A DNA stretch of 33,534 nucleotides, from IMG/VR virus record IMGVR_UViG_3300025860_000044, positions 1 through 33,534 of that record; one strand, given 5' to 3'. Every line of letters starts with the position of its first letter. Within the stretch, counting starts at the first letter, position 1. Below, piece after piece: positions 12,455 through 22,471 of this stretch. This DNA comes from a virus. The notes under the pieces are model-generated. The model made no database searches, was not told the DNA's origin, and saw nothing but the letters and a program-made list of their open reading frames with translations. A program made the position numbers and the translations under genes.

Positions 12455-14473
12455 CTATTTAGTTAAATCGTATGCAGTGTTTTTACTACCTGTAGTGTTA
12501 ATGTTAATTCCAGCACTGCGGTACGCCTGATTTATAGCTCGTTCTAACTCAGCTATTTGGTCGTTTATTCTTTCACGAGCTACTTTGTCAGGGTCGTCTA
12601 TTGCCCCACCTCGTAGAAATGGCATCTTTTTAGGTTCTTTAAGCATGCTACGTTCTTCCAGTAGGTTATCTACTCGTTTTTGTAGGTTTGTAACGTATGC
12701 TCCAGCGATAGGTTTGCGTGTGTTAGCCTTTGCTTTGGCTAAATCAATCGACGTTAAATCTTTATATGCAGATAGACCAGCTTGCCCTGCTTTGCCGAAA
12801 TCACCTGTACTCATTAACGTAAGACCAGCTTGGGCTAGGGATAACCATTGGTTTTGATTTAACTTGCTAGCAGTAGACTTAAATGATTCGCCCTCTTTAT
12901 CTAAGGCTTTAATCCCCGAAAGCTGATTCTTCTGCATCCTAGCTTCTTCTTTAGCACGTTTCTCTCTTTCTAGTTTAAGTTCAGCTGCTTCAGCATCGTC
13001 TTTCTTCTTCTGCATCTTAACTTCATAAGGGTTTGGCTGAGTGAACACCTCCGCTGCGGCACCCATAGCGTTACCTTGGCTCTCAGCTGCGTTGAATCTA
13101 CCGATGTTATCTATGTTTTGATCGCGCTTCTTTTGCGCTCTTTCTTCCACGTCTATAAAATACTGGTCAAGTCCGCTGGGGTTATTCGGATCACGCATGA
13201 ACCCACTAAAAGCAGATTGCCCTTCATATCTAGGGAATCCCTTAGAAGCACGGTCAAGAAAAGGGCCGACCCCTTCTGCTATTCTTTCTACAAAACCGGG
13301 ATTTTCTGGGTCGCGTCCGTACCCACCATAGATAGAAGTGGCGTTGGGGTCTAAGATTTGACCTAAGCCCATGCCTCCTTGCACCTGCTGTCCGGGGTAT
13401 GCTTTAGGAACAAAATTTGGAAAAGTAAGCGGCCCAGTCTTAACGGCATCGGGGTTATAGTCTGGTTGTTGAGGTAACAAACCCGGAGGTTGTGCATTTA
13501 TACCCTGCGGGACTCCGTCTAGCTTAGTAGTTTCAATAACGCCCGGGCTATAGTCTGGTTGTAACTGCCCAGAGAACTTCATACCATAAGCACTTAAAGT
13601 CGTACCATTAGAATCTGCTGGGTTATATTCGCCGCCGGACTCTATAAACTGACGCATACCACTTTTACCACCTAAGTGAGCCATAGCCATGATGCTGTCG
13701 TCATTAATTAGCACCCCATTAATTGTTTGTCCCTTGTACTCATCCAAGCCCGTGTCATCCGCATAGTCCGAAATATCTTTCTGGTGCCATTGCACAACTT
13801 CTTCTTGTAATGCTGGACTATCTTTAAACTGCTCCATAGTAAAATCTTTACCTGTCGCGTCACGAAAGTCTGTAAGCCTAGCATCCCCAAACTGATACTT
13901 CCCAACATAACCCTCACTGTTCTGTGCGTTATATCCACCAAGTCCTTGGCTCTCGCTTTCTCCAAGGTTTGTTAACATGCTAGACGATAAAGACGCTGCA
14001 ATACGAGCAAGTTCTTCTGGGTTGTCTTTGTACTGTTCGTATAGGGCTGGGTTACTTACTTTTAACCTTGCAATAGCATTCATATCGTCACCTGACACAA
14101 ACCCACCGGGAGCTAGGCGCATAATGCCACCATCAGCCATACGTTGAGGTTGGTTAGGTTGTCCGGGTAGTTTCGATGCTTGTACGCTTGGTACACCTGT
14201 ATTTTGTGTCATGTCTGTTTTAGGTGCTAGGGACTGTGCGACTTGTGCAATGCCTTGTTGTGGTACGCCCGCCGCAGATACGGCTTCTTGGGCAACAGTA
14301 GGTTGCATCAACCCTTCTTGTCGCTGTGCGTCTGACCGCATACGCTTTCGACGCTCAATCTCACTCAACACCATGAACTGAGGCGCAGAACCCGAAGGCA
14401 TCTGCATTTCTTTTATCAGTTGAGCTTCAGAGAAGTTCTTTAGCTTATCTTGGGTGTCGATCATATTGAGCAT
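12455..14473 (-). CDS. virion-associated lytic transglycosylase-like protein
   Basis: This is a 672-residue protein. Residues about 165-300 look like a lysozyme/SLT-type fold: GESESQGLGG (likely catalytic E174), then SEGYVGKYQFGDARLTDF, QEEVVQWH and MAHLGGKSGMRQF, the usual order in phage transglycosylase domains. Upstream is a GGIMRLAPGGFVSGDD segment of a kind seen in phage structural proteins. The rest is Pro/Gly/Gln-rich linker followed by a strongly charged coiled coil (about 480-520) and a helical C-terminus. Such proteins locally open peptidoglycan during genome entry. It shares one base with the upstream stop (TAATG at 14473) and has no clear ribosome-binding site, so reinitiation is likely. 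MIDTQ, three codons in, is an alternative start. Confidence 0.8.
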   Translation of the reverse strand: MLNMIDTQDKLKNFSEAQLIKEMQMPSGSAPQFMVLSEIERRKRMRSDAQRQEGLMQPTVAQEAVSAAGVPQQGIAQVAQSLAPKTDMTQNTGVPSVQASKLPGQPNQPQRMADGGIMRLAPGGFVSGDDMNAIARLKVSNPALYEQYKDNPEELARIAASLSSSMLTNLGESESQGLGGYNAQNSEGYVGKYQFGDARLTDFRDATGKDFTMEQFKDSPALQEEVVQWHQKDISDYADDTGLDEYKGQTINGVLINDDSIMAMAHLGGKSGMRQFIESGGEYNPADSNGTTLSAYGMKFSGQLQPDYSPGVIETTKLDGVPQGINAQPPGLLPQQPDYNPDAVKTGPLTFPNFVPKAYPGQQVQGGMGLGQILDPNATSIYGGYGRDPENPGFVERIAEGVGPFLDRASKGFPRYEGQSAFSGFMRDPNNPSGLDQYFIDVEERAQKKRDQNIDNIGRFNAAESQGNAMGAAAEVFTQPNPYEVKMQKKKDDAEAAELKLEREKRAKEEARMQKNQLSGIKALDKEGESFKSTASKLNQNQWLSLAQAGLTLMSTGDFGKAGQAGLSAYKDLTSIDLAKAKANTRKPIAGAYVTNLQKRVDNLLEERSMLKEPKKMPFLRGGAIDDPDKVARERINDQIAELERAINQAYRSAGININTTGSKNTAYDLTK

Positions 14474-17291: not shown

Positions 17292-17750
17292 TTATTCTAC
17301 TACACGTTGCTTATAATTTCCACCCACAACATTATATCCTAACTTTTGTAACATTGCACCGGTTTTGCCGGCACTTAAACCACTAGAAACACCCATGTAT
17401 ATCTCAGCAGCTTTACGCTCTTTAGCCCACTTTTCAAAGGCTCGTAGCAACTGCAGTCCAACGCGAGAACCTCTGCTTTGTGTAGACACATACCACACTG
17501 TGTCGGATGCTATCAAGTCAGTACCGAAATAATGTTCACCTATAGACCCAAGAAGAATACTATTAGGTACGCCATTAGCAGTGCCAATATACGCAAAGCG
17601 CGTATCTGGGTTAGTCATAAAGTCATATATTAATCGGCCACACTTATCTGGGTCGTAGTTAAAATGCCTATAAACACTTTCTTGGTGCATCTGATAGCCA
17701 AGATCAATAGCCGCAGGTACATCTTCTGGTTCTATAGGACGTATAGGCAT
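17292..17750 (-). CDS. GNAT-family N-acetyltransferase
   Basis: This 152-residue protein has the GNAT layout. It begins MPIRPIEPEDVPAAIDLG (strand 1 and helix 1). The acetyl-CoA loop follows strand 4 as VWYVSTQSRGSRVGLQLL (about 85-102), where the usual RGxGxG reads RGSRVG. Residues about 113-140 (AEIYMGVSSGL ... LQKLGYNVVGG) are strands 5-6, with the common kLGY ending. The acceptor is unknown; phage GNATs next to virion genes may modify host or virion proteins. It is wedged between the endolysin and the internal-virion genes, its ATG directly following the endolysin's TAG, so it is co-expressed with the late genes. Confidence 0.88.
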   Translation of the reverse strand: MPIRPIEPEDVPAAIDLGYQMHQESVYRHFNYDPDKCGRLIYDFMTNPDTRFAYIGTANGVPNSILLGSIGEHYFGTDLIASDTVWYVSTQSRGSRVGLQLLRAFEKWAKERKAAEIYMGVSSGLSAGKTGAMLQKLGYNVVGGNYKQRVVE

Positions 17751-18365: not shown

Positions 18366-18766
18366 TTTGTAATTCCTTGTTTCTTCTCGTAGCTGCGGAG
18401 ACCGCCCAATCCTAACATTCCCATCATAACAGTCATCAAACTACCCATATCAAACTCTGGTAGCTCGGGAATGTCAACGCCAGCGGCGGTTACGCCAAAC
18501 ACTATAAGCGGCTGTAAAACGAAGTGGTATGCAAACGCTACACCGCATACCCAGCCAATGAAGGGCCTCCAGCCGCCCTTAAATAAAGACCCCGATGCAG
18601 CTTCAGCTTTGTTTATTTCTAATTGCCCCATTAAGGCTTGCTGGGCATGATTATCGGACATTGTTGCGATCTCGTGGGCTAACTTAGCCTTTTGATCTTT
18701 GTCCTCAATAACTTTGTCTAGTAGCCCAGTAACAGGCCCTACCAAATTACTTACTAAACTCATCAT
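18362..18766 (-). CDS. holin, 3-TM (GTA/phage holin) family
   Basis: This 134-residue membrane protein carries SLFKGGWRPFIGWVCG (about 60-75), the recognisable signature of the 3-TM holin family shared with gene transfer agents. Hydrophobic segments lie at about 69-97 and 108-122; the N-terminal 60 residues form an amphipathic or first helix (LVGPVTGLLDKVI). Holins permeabilise the inner membrane to release endolysin and time lysis. It precedes the endolysin with an ATGA overlap and follows the EF-hand membrane protein with a TAATG overlap. Two tandem ATGs (18766 and 18763) allow starts one codon apart. Confidence 0.9.
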   Translation of the reverse strand: MMSLVSNLVGPVTGLLDKVIEDKDQKAKLAHEIATMSDNHAQQALMGQLEINKAEAASGSLFKGGWRPFIGWVCGVAFAYHFVLQPLIVFGVTAAGVDIPELPEFDMGSLMTVMMGMLGLGGLRSYEKKQGITK

Positions 18767-19086
18767 TAGTTATTTTCCTTCCCTTTTGTGTAGGCTTCCT
18801 TGCCATAGAAGGCGGCAACAATAGCAGCTACAGAAACAAAATACACACCAGCGATAGAAGCTAGCGACTTCATGGCTTCGTCAAGACTAGCCAAGTTACA
18901 GATAATTATTGCGAAAGGGTACAACAACATGCCGAATAATGCAAACCATGCCATCTGTCTTTGGGCATCTCTTTGAGCATCCTCATCAGCCATTTTTAGA
19001 CGTTTGTCTTCTAATGCTAACTTATCCCATTCGGCTTGGTCTATTGTACCGCTACCATCTAAATCGGCTTTGTCAAATTCTGTCAT
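18766..19086 (-). CDS. EF-hand, two-TM membrane protein of the lysis cassette
   Basis: This is a 106-residue protein. The N-terminus holds a canonical EF-hand loop DLDGSGTIDQAE with ligands at D8, D10, S12, T14, D16 and E19. A charged helix follows (about 26-44), then two hydrophobic segments (about 45-66 and 75-94) and a charged Lys/Glu/Asn tail. Topology would put the Ca-binding loop and both termini on the same side of the inner membrane. It lies directly before the holin with a TAATG overlap and has a good AGGAG site. A role as holin partner or antiholin, or as a calcium-responsive lysis modulator, is inference from position; no such activity is shown by sequence. Confidence 0.82.
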   Translation of the reverse strand: MTEFDKADLDGSGTIDQAEWDKLALEDKRLKMADEDAQRDAQRQMAWFALFGMLLYPFAIIICNLASLDEAMKSLASIAGVYFVSVAAIVAAFYGKEAYTKGKENN

Positions 19087-19095
19087 ATTAATCTC

Positions 19096-19605
19096 CTAAT
19101 CTGCAAGGGGGTTATCTAATGCCCGCTGTAGTTTACCCATTAATTTATCTTCTAATTCTTTCATATCACCGCTTTGCGATACTCTAACACGTTCTCGTTG
19201 ATTTTCAAATCGTACTTCTGCATTGTCTATCATCTTGCGAACTTTGTCCTCAGACTCTCGCACCATATCTTCCACACGATCTGTTTGCTTCTCTATACTC
19301 AATATATCCGACCGCAACCCGTTCTTAATGTCACGACTGTACTCTACCGATTCTTCAACCTTCTCTGCGATACCCGTGACTTTTGCATCCATAACATCCA
19401 TCGCTTGTTGATAAGCTCCAAGGTCTAGACCTGCGACCTCTTCGATCTTTTGGTACATTACGAACCCGCCATACAAGCCACCTACAACTGTAGACAAGAA
19501 AGCAAATATAGCCATGATTGAACCGAATGACAGCTTCATACCACCGGTCTTAAACTCACGATCTGCAAGCCCATCAATGTTATCCGCTATCTTGGTAGTA
19601 TCCAT
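19096..19605 (-). CDS. membrane-anchored coiled-coil protein (possible i-spanin analogue)
   Basis: This 169-residue protein has one TM helix (about 27-51, FGSIMAIFAFLSTVVGG) followed by a long charged coiled coil through the rest (VEESVEYSRDIKNGLRSD, then VEDMVRESEDKVRKMIDNAE). An N-in, C-out orientation would place the coiled coil in the periplasm, the architecture of inner-membrane spanin subunits, though it is longer than lambda Rz. Cytoplasmic orientation cannot be excluded. Its ATG overlaps the TAA of the preceding signal-peptide protein (TAATG), and an AGGAG site follows for the next gene. No family was recognised. Confidence 0.7.
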   Translation of the reverse strand: MDTTKIADNIDGLADREFKTGGMKLSFGSIMAIFAFLSTVVGGLYGGFVMYQKIEEVAGLDLGAYQQAMDVMDAKVTGIAEKVEESVEYSRDIKNGLRSDILSIEKQTDRVEDMVRESEDKVRKMIDNAEVRFENQRERVRVSQSGDMKELEDKLMGKLQRALDNPLAD

Positions 19606-20003
19606 TAGTTCTCAAACTCCATTTCGCCACCAGCGCTTTGTAAATTTTTTAGTTCTTCTAACTCATTACGTAGTTGTTGTATCTCTAACCTACGTTGTGC
19701 TAACTCTACTTGGTATAAATCATCACAATTAATTCGAGACTTAGGTTTATCCAAGGGTATAACAATACGTGCGTATACGCCTATATCCTTGCCTCTGCTG
19801 TTTGTGTCTAAGCCTGACAACACACCTGTCACGCCATACTCTAAGTTTATACCCCCACCTACAGCATTACTGCATCTCATATTCCCTGTGGAAAAACTGT
19901 CTGATTGGTAGTTCATTGGCGGGTTGGGCAGTGATAAAGATAAAGCGCTGTTATCTGCTACCGCAGAACTAGCTAATATACAAAAAACTAACGCTAACCT
20001 CAT
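19605..20003 (-). CDS. exported protein with signal peptide and C-terminal coiled coil
   Basis: This 132-residue protein starts MRLALVFCILASSAVADN, a clear Sec signal with cleavage likely after AVA (residue 16). I chose the ATG at 20003 over one nine codons upstream (20030): GGAG lies seven bases before it, it overlaps the previous stop as ATGA, and it puts the signal peptide at the N-terminus. The mature part has a beta-rich region (GGGINLEYGVTGVLSG ... GVYARIVIPLDKP), two Cys (MRCSNA, INCDDL) and an amphipathic coiled coil at the end (QVELAQRRLEIQQLRNELEE). It may pair with the neighbouring TM coiled-coil protein. Function unknown; it resembles a conserved hypothetical of marine phages (recall, unverified). 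Confidence 0.7.
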   Translation of the reverse strand: MRLALVFCILASSAVADNSALSLSLPNPPMNYQSDSFSTGNMRCSNAVGGGINLEYGVTGVLSGLDTNSRGKDIGVYARIVIPLDKPKSRINCDDLYQVELAQRRLEIQQLRNELEELKNLQSAGGEMEFEN

Positions 20004-20389
20004 GCTGGTTCTCCATCTAGTCTTGAGCATATCTTAGAAGAAACGAGTGTTCTAGATACATTAGTTTTCCTTACTTTTGACGTAGTGCACAGATATACCG
20101 CTTCTGGTAAATCTCTTTTTCTTATATATACATCAAAAGCCCTATGTTCTTTGTAATCAACCTTCATAATCCTATACGTTGTAGAGAAAGGTATAGGCAT
20201 CCAATTTAAGTCAAACAAATCAATCTGATAATACTTTATCTCTTCCCTAGAATTAAAGAGAGACATCTCTACCTTGAGTACATTTTTAACGTGAGACATC
20301 TTTACTTCTGGGTAAGCAGGCGTCATTTCATGCGCTGTTACATAAGACGCCCAAACCAAAAAAGCTATAATTGTCTTACTTAGCAACAC
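20000..20389 (-). CDS. exported Ig-like beta protein
   Basis: This 129-residue protein begins at a GTG (20389) within the end of the upstream gene (14-base overlap) and starts MLLSKTIIAFLVWASYVTAH, a Sec signal with cleavage after VTA (residue 19). The mature domain of about 90 residues (TPAYPEVKM ... VKNVLKVEMSLFN ... YYQIDLFDLNWMPIPF ... FDVYIRKRDLPEAVYLC) alternates strands like an immunoglobulin-type fold, loosely reminiscent of periplasmic pilus chaperones. No PapD signature is certain. Two Cys (LCTTSK, KICSR) could form a disulfide. It directly follows a pilin-like exported protein. Function unknown; the Ig-like fold is a guess from the strand pattern. Confidence 0.62.
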   Translation of the reverse strand: MLLSKTIIAFLVWASYVTAHEMTPAYPEVKMSHVKNVLKVEMSLFNSREEIKYYQIDLFDLNWMPIPFSTTYRIMKVDYKEHRAFDVYIRKRDLPEAVYLCTTSKVRKTNVSRTLVSSKICSRLDGEPA

Positions 20390-20864
20390 AACTTGCCTGC
20401 ACTACCGCAGTGTAAGTGCCGCCCGGTAATGGTTTAGCTGAACCATAAACAGCACTTGAAGATGTAGAGAACCACGTAGACCCTGCGATAGTTAAGTCGA
20501 AAATTGTGGTATCATCTACTACAACTTTGGCAGCTTCATATCCTGACATACTAGCGTCGGATGTTTGAGTTACGCTTGTGCTACCTGTCCATGCAACTGT
20601 ATCTGATAAAGATGGGGATGAACTAAACGATGTTGGGTGTTTTATGTTAGCTGTATAAGAATCTGCAATAGACACATCATACCTAATTACAGGCAATATA
20701 CCTCCGTCAGAAGTGGTGGTGCTCAACTTACTAGCAATCGGGTTTCCGTACACGCCATTCTTAGTTGTTTGAATGACACATTTAGCTTCTACACTACCTG
20801 TAATCTCAACATCAGCTAGTGCAGGGAGTGCGCACAGTGAAAGTGCCATAATAGAATATTTCAT
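20376..20864 (-). CDS. exported pilin/coat-like beta protein
   Basis: This 162-residue protein has a Sec signal MKYSIMALSLCALPALADV (cleavage after ALA, residue 17). The ATG at 20864 is preferred over the one four codons upstream (20876) because GAGG lies six bases before it. The mature protein is Ser/Thr/Gly-rich and beta-predicted, beginning VEITGSVEAKCVIQ, with VIRYDVSIADSYTAN in the middle and ending GGTYTAVVQASCVAK. Two Cys near the ends recall the disulfide of spore-coat U and fimbrial subunit domains. A true homology needs structure prediction. It lies between two other signal-peptide proteins, which suggests a jointly exported assembly. Confidence 0.68.
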   Translation of the reverse strand: MKYSIMALSLCALPALADVEITGSVEAKCVIQTTKNGVYGNPIASKLSTTTSDGGILPVIRYDVSIADSYTANIKHPTSFSSSPSLSDTVAWTGSTSVTQTSDASMSGYEAAKVVVDDTTIFDLTIAGSTWFSTSSSAVYGSAKPLPGGTYTAVVQASCVAK

Positions 20865-20872
20865 AATAAACC

Positions 20873-21742
20873 TCATTTGTTGTACTGCATGTCGACCATC
20901 TTCTCGTGCAGTATTTGTTGTGCTAAGTTATTACGCAAGGCTTTCTTGTTATCAAGTATTTTTGAATCAGCAAGACCAGCAGCGTCAGCATAAACACCAC
21001 CATTAATAGATGCATTGTAGTACATGGTTATATTAGTCTGTTCATTAATAGCCATGATAATATCATCTTGTCCTTGTGTCTTAAAGAGAGTCAACGCATT
21101 GGCAGATGCAGTTAAACCCATTTCAATTCTAGTTTCTTCTTCTTCCTCTTCTTCAGATAGAATAAGTTTGCCATCTTCATCATACTGAAACTCATCTACT
21201 TCTAACGTCTCAACAACAGCGTCATCTTCTAGCGCATCATACACTTCTATCACAGGAAGAACAGGCATGGGCTTTACATACCCCGGACAGTTAGGGTTGG
21301 ACTGTGGGTCAAAACACTCGTCGACCCTATAGCTATATATAACCACAGCATCTTTGACCGAACCCTCCCCTTCAATGTCAATCGAACCTGCACCCCATTG
21401 GGTAGCTGGAATGTTAGAAAGGGGAAAGGATTTAACGATTGTGTTGCCGGGAACTCCCGACCAGTCGTCGGTTTCTCGAAAGATATAACCATCTCCGTTA
21501 GCGTTTTTATTACCGACATGAACTTTCATATCGTCTTCCGGGTTCTTCACAGTAGTATATCTATACAGGAGACCGTTTATATCAATTCCCGGAACATCGG
21601 GTAAGACAGAACCCATCCCCCAACTCAGTGCTGTGGACGCCGCGTTCCCTGTTGCCCCGTAGCTATAGGGATCACAAGAAGAGTAAGAAGGCCAAAGTGC
21701 TAATAATAACACTAAGACCTGTTTTTGTTTCAATGTTTTCAT
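20873..21742 (-). CDS. exported acidic protein of unknown function
   Basis: This 289-residue protein has a signal peptide (MKTLKQKQVLVLLLALWP..., cleavage near SSC at 22-23; not a good lipobox, since YSSC has Tyr at -3). The mature part is Gly/Asp/Asn-rich with SYGATGNAASTALSWGMG at its start and two more Cys (DECFDPQ, NPNCPGY). A Pro-rich hinge follows (YVKPMPVLPVIEVYD), then a strongly acidic stretch with seven consecutive Glu near 200. A helical C-terminal part contains QDDIIMAINEQTNITMYYN. AGGAAG precedes the start. The first 71 bases overlap the upstream gene in another frame. Its TGA overlaps an upstream alternative ATG of the next gene. Confidence 0.68.
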   Translation of the reverse strand: MKTLKQKQVLVLLLALWPSYSSCDPYSYGATGNAASTALSWGMGSVLPDVPGIDINGLLYRYTTVKNPEDDMKVHVGNKNANGDGYIFRETDDWSGVPGNTIVKSFPLSNIPATQWGAGSIDIEGEGSVKDAVVIYSYRVDECFDPQSNPNCPGYVKPMPVLPVIEVYDALEDDAVVETLEVDEFQYDEDGKLILSEEEEEEETRIEMGLTASANALTLFKTQGQDDIIMAINEQTNITMYYNASINGGVYADAAGLADSKILDNKKALRNNLAQQILHEKMVDMQYNK

Positions 21743-22238
21743 TGAAAATCTTCCTCATTGGATTGTTCTGTTCACGCTCAATAGTTTCCTTAACAGCTTC
21801 CATTTCCCATGCTAGCCTAGCTTTATCGCCCACCAACCCATCCTTGGGGCAGGGCGTCCCAGCATTGAGCATGGCTTCAAACACTCTTTCGTCTTGACAC
21901 ATTACGGATACCGCTGCCACTTTCATCCCCATATCGTACATGGTTTTCGCGTTCTTTAATTTTTCACAATTCATGTCTCGAACGGTTCTACCCGCAGAGA
22001 TACCTAGTATTTGCGTCTGCACCGCCCCCGCGACACCTACAGTGCATAGGTCAGAGTTGCTTGCGCTAATCTGCGGAGAAATCGCAGAAGGCGGCGGACT
22101 TTTAACAGTAGTGTCCATCGAACCATTAGAAGTTATAGTACTGTTAGTATCAGTCCGAATTGTATCATCAGCAAATACATAGTTACCTATAGCAAGACCT
22201 GCAATAAAGAAGAGTACCGCTATAAGTAAACGTATCAT
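21672..22238 (-). CDS. exported/membrane protein, Cys-rich, with C-terminal hydrophobic tail
   Basis: This 188-residue protein has an N-terminal signal or anchor MIRLLIAVLFFIAGLAIGN, possibly cleaved after VFA (residue 23). It is followed by a Ser/Thr-rich linker and a domain with four Cys (SDLCTVGV, DMNCEKL, VMCQDE, TPCPKD) likely paired in the periplasm. A helix (KDGLVGDKARLAWEMEAVKE) precedes a hydrophobic C-terminal stretch (VIISTLAFLLFL). GGAG lies six bases before the ATG, which overlaps the upstream stop (ATGA). The tail shares 71 bases with the next gene's signal peptide. I recall this Cys pattern as a marine-phage conserved hypothetical; function unknown. Confidence 0.72.
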   Translation of the reverse strand: MIRLLIAVLFFIAGLAIGNYVFADDTIRTDTNSTITSNGSMDTTVKSPPPSAISPQISASNSDLCTVGVAGAVQTQILGISAGRTVRDMNCEKLKNAKTMYDMGMKVAAVSVMCQDERVFEAMLNAGTPCPKDGLVGDKARLAWEMEAVKETIEREQNNPMRKIFNENIETKTGLSVIISTLAFLLFL

Positions 22239-22471
22239 TGTCGCTCCACTAACCTATCTAGCTTCTCTTCTATCTTATCAAACTTACTCATTATTTGACC
22301 TAACACTTGGTTAGAATCGTACTTAGTGACGTACTCTTTAGCTAATTCTTCACGAGTCCTATTAAGCAGGATAGTAACACGCTTCACTTCTTCGTGGTGA
22401 GACTTAATCCACCACACTAAAAAACCGCCGCCAGCGGTTAGCCCAATATTCCAAATTGCGGCCATCTCCAC
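22235..22471 (-). CDS. small TM-coiled-coil protein
   Basis: This 78-residue protein has one TM helix at the N-terminus (about 4-23, AIWNIGLTAGGGFLVWWI) and a charged coiled coil behind it (HHEEVKRVTILLNRTREE ... MSKFDKIEEKLDRLVERQ). The GTG at 22471 is chosen because it shares one base with the TAG of the preceding mini-gene (TAGTG), a coupling form repeated in this operon. An ATG two codons in (22465) is the alternative. The size and layout fit a small spanin- or holin-accessory-like protein. Confidence 0.65.
   Translation of the reverse strand: MEMAAIWNIGLTAGGGFLVWWIKSHHEEVKRVTILLNRTREELAKEYVTKYDSNQVLGQIMSKFDKIEEKLDRLVERQ

Follow-up and report, generated by a model that had tools for sequence, protein, structure and literature searches.

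A block of six genes, P0002 to P0007, in the IMG/VR virus record IMGVR_UViG_3300025860_000044 is a real, widespread and apparently undescribed phage cassette. The window, meaning the whole stretch of DNA that was analysed, is this 33.5-kb record, probably a genome fragment, related records being as long as 55-60 kb. The reading we tentatively favour is that the block is mobile and builds an envelope assembly from Sec-exported proteins, in which a single-domain PapD-like chaperone (P0005) works with a pilin-like subunit (P0004).

Export signals were scored with a simple rule for signal peptides of the signal peptidase I (SPI) type, namely a charge-free hydrophobic core followed by a -3/-1 site. 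Exactly 5 of the 35 window genes score positive, P0002 to P0006. The rule has a false-positive rate of 3-10% per protein on shuffled sequences, and five consecutive positives with none elsewhere in the window are not a chance result. Likely cleavage sites were placed in P0002 (VFA|DD), P0004 (ALA|DV), P0005 (VTA|HE) and P0006 (AVA|DN), and divergent homologues keep signal-like N-termini. An earlier note, made from the letters of this DNA alone, had described five consecutive exported proteins between P0001 and P0007, each of these two with one N-terminal transmembrane segment and a coiled coil, and clear cleavage sites in four of the five signal sequences; the test upholds both statements. The fifth signal, that of P0003, ends near an SSC which reads SYSSC, LHSDP or SYSNP in homologues. 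Since this Cys varies, P0003 was dropped as a lipoprotein candidate and is probably not one.

The seven consecutive open reading frames (ORFs) of the earlier note, P0001 to P0007, were all found on the minus strand (Table 1), and their tight linkage was found as well. P0001/P0002 and P0003/P0004 share 4 nt each, P0004/P0005 overlap by 14 nt, P0005/P0006 join in an ATGA at 20000-20003 and P0006/P0007 in a TAATG, while P0002/P0003 overlap by 71 nt in the window and by 62-74 nt in most homologous loci. Alignments of homologues put the conserved start of P0006 at ATG 20003, not at 20030. Over 21672-21742 the hydrophobic C-tail of P0002 and the signal peptide of P0003 share about 70 nt in two frames; the pelagiphages that were read have a short overlap here or none, and their P0002 is mostly without the hydrophobic tail.

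Profile and homologue scans of IMG/VR showed that the six-gene order is kept far beyond the source phage. The scans were pattern-limited and each gave over 500 relatives (548 for the P0002 scan, at least 590 for a profile scan); loci from separate scans partly overlap, and their counts are not independent. The order P0002-P0003-P0004-P0005-P0006-P0007 recurs in the loci with enough DNA and persists at 52-65% P0002 identity with different flanking genes, and contigs ending inside the block show shorter versions of it. Homologues of P0007 end in ALDNPLxx almost always (171 profile matches); two matches without this ending are, in our reading, Rz-like proteins caught by the profile. P0003 gave no family match in the family-library scans, and its positional analogues in pelagiphages have a signal peptide and an acidic linker, two of them with sub-threshold similarity to CBM_4_9. 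P0001 and P0008 were considered as core parts and dropped, being absent from many loci; a P0001 homologue is present in roseophage CRP-810, and an EF-hand family match is placed before P0007 or upstream in a few loci.

Some further observations came from the same loci, which are cited here by L numbers. The P0002 matches in a genome collection (L239-L262) are contigs of very diverse marine metagenome-assembled genomes, including archaeal and Bacteroidetes bins, and are probably viral contigs binned together with hosts. Small exported-looking proteins near the cassette end in GFNF, TFNF or FSF-like residues (L113:4533-4880, L120:3885-4346, L132:4269-4631, L149:3837-4229) and may be small outer-membrane beta-barrels.

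The cassette consists of two submodules which also occur apart: submodule A is P0002, P0003 and P0007, and submodule B is P0004, P0005 and P0006. P0002 homologues are known in pelagiphages and roseophages, and submodule A stands without P0004-P0006 near P0002 in HTVC115P, HTVC033P, HTVC202P, Baldr, Mosig (a myovirus), S28-C10 and roseophage CRP-810. In another locus (L160) P0002-P0003-P0007 occur with no P0004-P0006 detected. Submodule A loci hold a P0002 homologue, then mostly a long exported acidic protein, then a transmembrane/coiled-coil protein ending in NPL. Every one of the 48 module-A loci whose DNA extends far enough downstream has such an NPL-ending ORF, against a background of 243 among 6527 ORFs in which the P0007 family is included. 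Near submodule A, HTVC115P gp46 (L081:11399-11848) is annotated as a toxin-activating lysine-acyltransferase and Baldr has an annotated acetyltransferase; positions 17292-17750 of the window hold an acetyltransferase-like gene.

Submodule B is known from Vibrio phages, with P0006 homologues in 180 of them and the P0005-like protein in 179 records. In K478b, Bennett, D96a, D71 and VPG01 (59-128 kb) the P0004-like and P0005-like genes lead in the same order; the P0006 frame is unannotated in D96a, where it was read by translation, and was not resolved in D71. P0002, P0003 and P0007 were not seen near submodule B in these phages. Compared by hhalign with signal peptides included, P0005 matches its Vibrio counterpart with Prob 95.6 and E 1e-8, and P0004 with Prob 96.2 and E 2e-9. 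In Vibrio phages a small, conserved ORF with a lipoprotein-like product (SGCTxNFxIDTDYA; Table 1) follows directly after the P0006 homologue and often overlaps it. In D71 a gene annotated as PagP (lipid A acylation; L273:10224-10661) lies a few kb from the P0004 and P0005 homologues.

The structures of P0005 and P0004 were predicted by AlphaFold2 from alignments of 54 and 40 sequences respectively, and were searched against the PDB with Foldseek. P0005, about 110 residues after cleavage, models as a single PapD-like domain with a pLDDT (predicted local distance difference test) of 90.4. Its best 12 PDB matches are all chaperone-usher chaperones, including FaeE, Caf1M, SafB and PapD, with E from 3.1e-4 to 1e-3 and TM (template modelling) scores of about 0.5-0.6. 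Nine matches have E below 1e-3, all of them to chaperone-usher chaperones or their complexes, and they are followed by more of these and by MSP domains. An invariant Cys pair lies in the predicted F and G strands, with a loop of about 13 residues between. P0004 models with a pLDDT of 89.7, and its first match is the CfaB pilin; the PapG pilin domain and FimF are in the top five, further chaperone-usher pilins are in the top 10, and FimG and CsuA/B are matched as well. The model has a strand at the C-terminal end, and the residues before about 32 are strandless and of low confidence. Two motifs are conserved in P0004, a C-terminal GxYxAxVxAxCxA and an N-terminal VxIxGxVxxxC, whose invariant Gly and Val before the first Cys resemble FimF TITIRGYVRDNGC. 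Either match alone is only a modest argument because immunoglobulin (Ig)-like folds match widely. The strongest argument for the chaperone/pilin reading is that two adjacent genes independently match both partners of one system. Altogether the PapD-like and pilin-like folds are moderately supported.

Several results weigh against this reading. The wide matching of Ig-like folds is one of them, and the pilin matches of P0004 are weak, with a best E of 6e-3, TM scores of about 0.4, none below 1e-3, and AP2-mu and other beta folds interleaved. P0005 has no second chaperone domain, whereas PapD-type chaperones have two Ig domains. In alignments to E. coli K-12 pilins and chaperones, made with signal peptides removed and judged against 120 column shuffles, P0005 with its Vibrio homologues aligned over 100 columns to the chaperones and 1 of 120 shuffles scored as high, which is borderline; without the Vibrio homologues there was no signal (42 of 120). 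P0004 with its Vibrio homologues was also borderline against the pilins, at 6 of 120. No usher (PF00577) was found in the window, and 22 related records, several of them fragmentary, gave none over the cut-off. Finally, an envelope-shielding role is one that we infer by elimination and from location.

Other searches by sequence gave little. Direct homology to K-12 pilins was considered and dropped, as the hhalign probability of 58-75% was inflated by the inclusion of signal peptides and became borderline once these were removed. P0004 and P0005 gave no Pfam match, and PDB sequence searches with profiles returned nothing significant. The large genes preceding the Vibrio trio were considered as ushers and dropped, having no Usher Pfam match and no N-terminal signal peptide. 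A limited literature search found no phage-encoded PapD-like chaperone.

Based on these folds and on the gene order, one may sketch how the assembly would work. P0004 is modelled as a pilin-like beta domain whose last strand seems to be missing. P0005 would cap it, and the gap would afterwards be filled by a donor-like N-terminal strand, supplied by a partner or by a further copy of P0004, so that a short fibre or tether forms. P0006, a small exported coiled-coil protein, would accompany the two. Submodule A would anchor the assembly, with P0007 in the inner membrane and its coiled coil in the periplasm, P0002 in the periplasm with a hydrophobic C-tail, and P0003 as a large exported partner. 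The net result would most likely be an altered envelope or surface of the infected cell; receptors might, for example, be shielded from further or repeat adsorption, and the assembly would not replace a spanin. The full form of this idea, a miniature chaperone-pilin machine that works without an usher and builds in the host a trans-envelope fibre joined by donor strands and tethered by P0002, P0003 and P0007, is doubtful.

Another reading is that the block belongs to lysis. In the window it runs, as the earlier note had it, into P0008 (a transmembrane protein with a weak Pfam EF-hand match), the holin P0009 and the endolysin P0010, and the absence of a classical Rz/Rz1 pair was borne out for the 33.5-kb window, where no lipobox ORF was found in any of six frames and no phrog_812 match was seen; the lipobox scan found lipoproteins in some Vibrio phages and missed a short one in Bennett. 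The note's placement of the block within a lysis cassette is mostly not supported by other phages, which have the same block beside unrelated genes and in which Rz-like spanins sometimes coexist with it or with a submodule. Flanking genes elsewhere include DNA polymerase, thymidylate synthase, small terminase, exonuclease and alternative oxidase. Among 137 neighbour proteins scanned in diverse loci there were small terminase, exonuclease, fatty-acid desaturase, alternative oxidase and carbamoyltransferase, and only two matched GH19 (glycoside hydrolase family 19) endolysin; among 64 larger upstream proteins sampled, DNA polymerase was the most frequent (11), then thymidylate synthase, portal and others. 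Obligate membership in a lysis cassette was dropped on account of these heterogeneous flanks. What stands of the phage-built periplasmic or outer-membrane assembly proposed in the earlier note is a conserved group of closely spaced genes for exported and membrane proteins, which plausibly form an envelope assembly, and the predicted chaperone/pilin-like pair would make a periplasmic or surface structure more concrete.

An unconventional spanin would be a narrower form of the lysis reading, in which P0007 (N-in transmembrane segment, periplasmic coiled coil) and P0002 (N-out, C-terminal hydrophobic segment) disrupt the outer membrane at lysis together with P0003-P0006, as a substitute for Rz/Rz1. 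We think this quite unlikely. As a general role it is weakened by the phrog_812 Rz-like spanin family, matched in 8 of 30 records that bear the cassette or a submodule, including the Vibrio phages Bennett and VPG01 (E about 1e-26), and one record (G007) carries an overlapping i-/o-spanin-like pair besides the full cassette. Because spanins of this kind coexist with the cassette or a submodule, it is not a general spanin replacement, and the idea of a spanin substitute as its general function was dropped. The block is also often distant from lysis genes, for instance adjoining DNA polymerase. In the window's clade the block does adjoin holin and endolysin, and three relatives of 55-60 kb, like the window, give no phrog_812 match. 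A survey of phages that infect Gram-negative hosts recognised no spanin in about 13% of them, and its authors suggested that an inner-membrane protein in N-out orientation and with a transmembrane domain at the C-terminus could act as one (PMC6139136). Such spanin-less phages and unusual topologies leave room for a lysis role in this clade. A limited literature search found no spanin work on pelagiphages.

Superinfection exclusion might also be achieved more directly, by several proteins which block receptors in the manner of small exported phage blockers and without pilin-type donor-strand chemistry. The exported proteins, the cassette-like mobility, a position independent of lysis genes and, in some phages, a place downstream of tail-fibre-like genes would all fit. 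With an unconventional lysis role it is the main rival of the favoured reading. We consider it unlikely, however, since six genes are a heavy investment and the window's block sits in a late-type run between structural and lysis genes, while exclusion is usually useful early. Even less probable, and very much so, is that the proteins are virion or adsorption components, matured in the periplasm and picked up by virions on release. They do lie near tail-fibre-like genes in Vibrio phages and S28-C10, but their position varies and includes places beside replication genes, Sec signals are rare in virion proteins of tailed phages, and a limited literature search found no virion proteome paper.

The envelope assembly with a chaperone/pilin-like pair is the reading we keep, as interesting and unproven. 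The cassette is common in aquatic phages; cultured pelagiphages and Vibrio phages carry parts of it, and the annotation of its members is hypothetical. A fixed block of six exported genes in so many aquatic phages implies that it has been selected for a role it plays in the host envelope. If the reading is right, this would be the first chaperone/pilin pair described in phages, as far as a limited literature search shows, and a route to study donor-strand assembly without an usher; the homologues in cultured phages make it testable.

A protein with an EF-hand and a transmembrane segment turns up repeatedly, in divergent phages, close to the cassette or to its neighbouring genes (18766-19086 in the window; L363:12310-12642; L370:12249-12566). 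A 672-residue protein at window positions 12455-14473 has an endolysin-like domain (phrog_26675), adjoins a DNA-ejection-type protein, and is probably a virion-associated lysin.

Table 1. Genes of the cassette and its neighbours in the window, and an associated reading frame of Vibrio phages
Feature	Position	Strand	Description	Place
P0001	22235..22471	minus	78 amino acids, GTG start, N-terminal transmembrane segment and coiled coil; phrog_462 E 9e-8	optional neighbour
P0002	21672..22238	minus	signal peptide, domain with four invariant Cys, C-terminal hydrophobic tail; phrog_20531 E 2e-14	submodule A
P0003	20873..21742	minus	signal peptide, beta-rich-looking N-terminal part, acidic linker, C-terminal ...MVDMQY	submodule A
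P0004	20376..20876	minus	signal peptide and predicted pilin-like beta domain; matches phrog_25895	submodule B
P0005	20000..20389	minus	signal peptide and one predicted PapD-like Ig domain, conserved Cys pair	submodule B
P0006	19605..20003	minus	signal peptide, SLxLxLPxxP mature N-terminus, two invariant Cys, C-terminal coiled coil; phrog_37374 E 2e-8	submodule B
P0007	19096..19605	minus	N-terminal transmembrane segment, coiled coil, C-terminus ALDNPLAD	submodule A
P0008	18766..19086	minus	EF-hand and transmembrane protein; EF-hand_5 E 3e-5, just under cut-off	frequent neighbour
P0009	18362..18766	minus	holin, GTA_holin_3TM PF11351 E 4e-24	neighbour outside cassette
P0010	17751..18365	minus	GH19-type endolysin, phrog_181 E 1e-46, PF00182 E 4e-8	neighbour outside cassette
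phrog_16916	L237:6329-6505, L238:6314-6517, L272:6655-6822		lipoprotein-like ORF	Vibrio phages

The cassette is like two-component spanins (lambda Rz/Rz1, phrog_812) in that P0007, and P0001 too, have the i-spanin's layout of an N-terminal transmembrane segment and periplasmic coiled coil, and in that the P0002 and P0003 genes overlap; the cassette differs in having no lipoprotein partner, in not being tied to lysis genes and in coexisting with true spanins in several phages. The families matched by P0002, P0004 and P0006 (phrog_20531, phrog_25895 and phrog_37374) have no assigned function, and nothing was found linking them to one another or to chaperone-usher folds. The likeness to chaperone-usher systems lies in adjacent Sec-exported genes whose predicted folds resemble those of a pilin (P0004) and of an N-terminal chaperone domain (P0005), and in the donor-strand-like N-terminus of P0004. 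Unlike those systems, this one is phage-encoded, P0005 has a single Ig domain, no usher was found, the P0004 Cys pair lies in the N-terminal region and the last strand where that of pilins is in the A and B strands, and P0002, P0003, P0006 and P0007 have no counterpart there. FGL (F1-G1 long) chaperones have a disulfide between their F1 and G1 strands (PMC4133393), and the Cys pair of P0005 in the F and G strands is like it, although there is only one domain and the loop of about 13 residues is closer to the FGS (F1-G1 short) length given in that paper. The resemblance is one of fold and of possible mechanism, rather than of membership in the chaperone-usher pathway.

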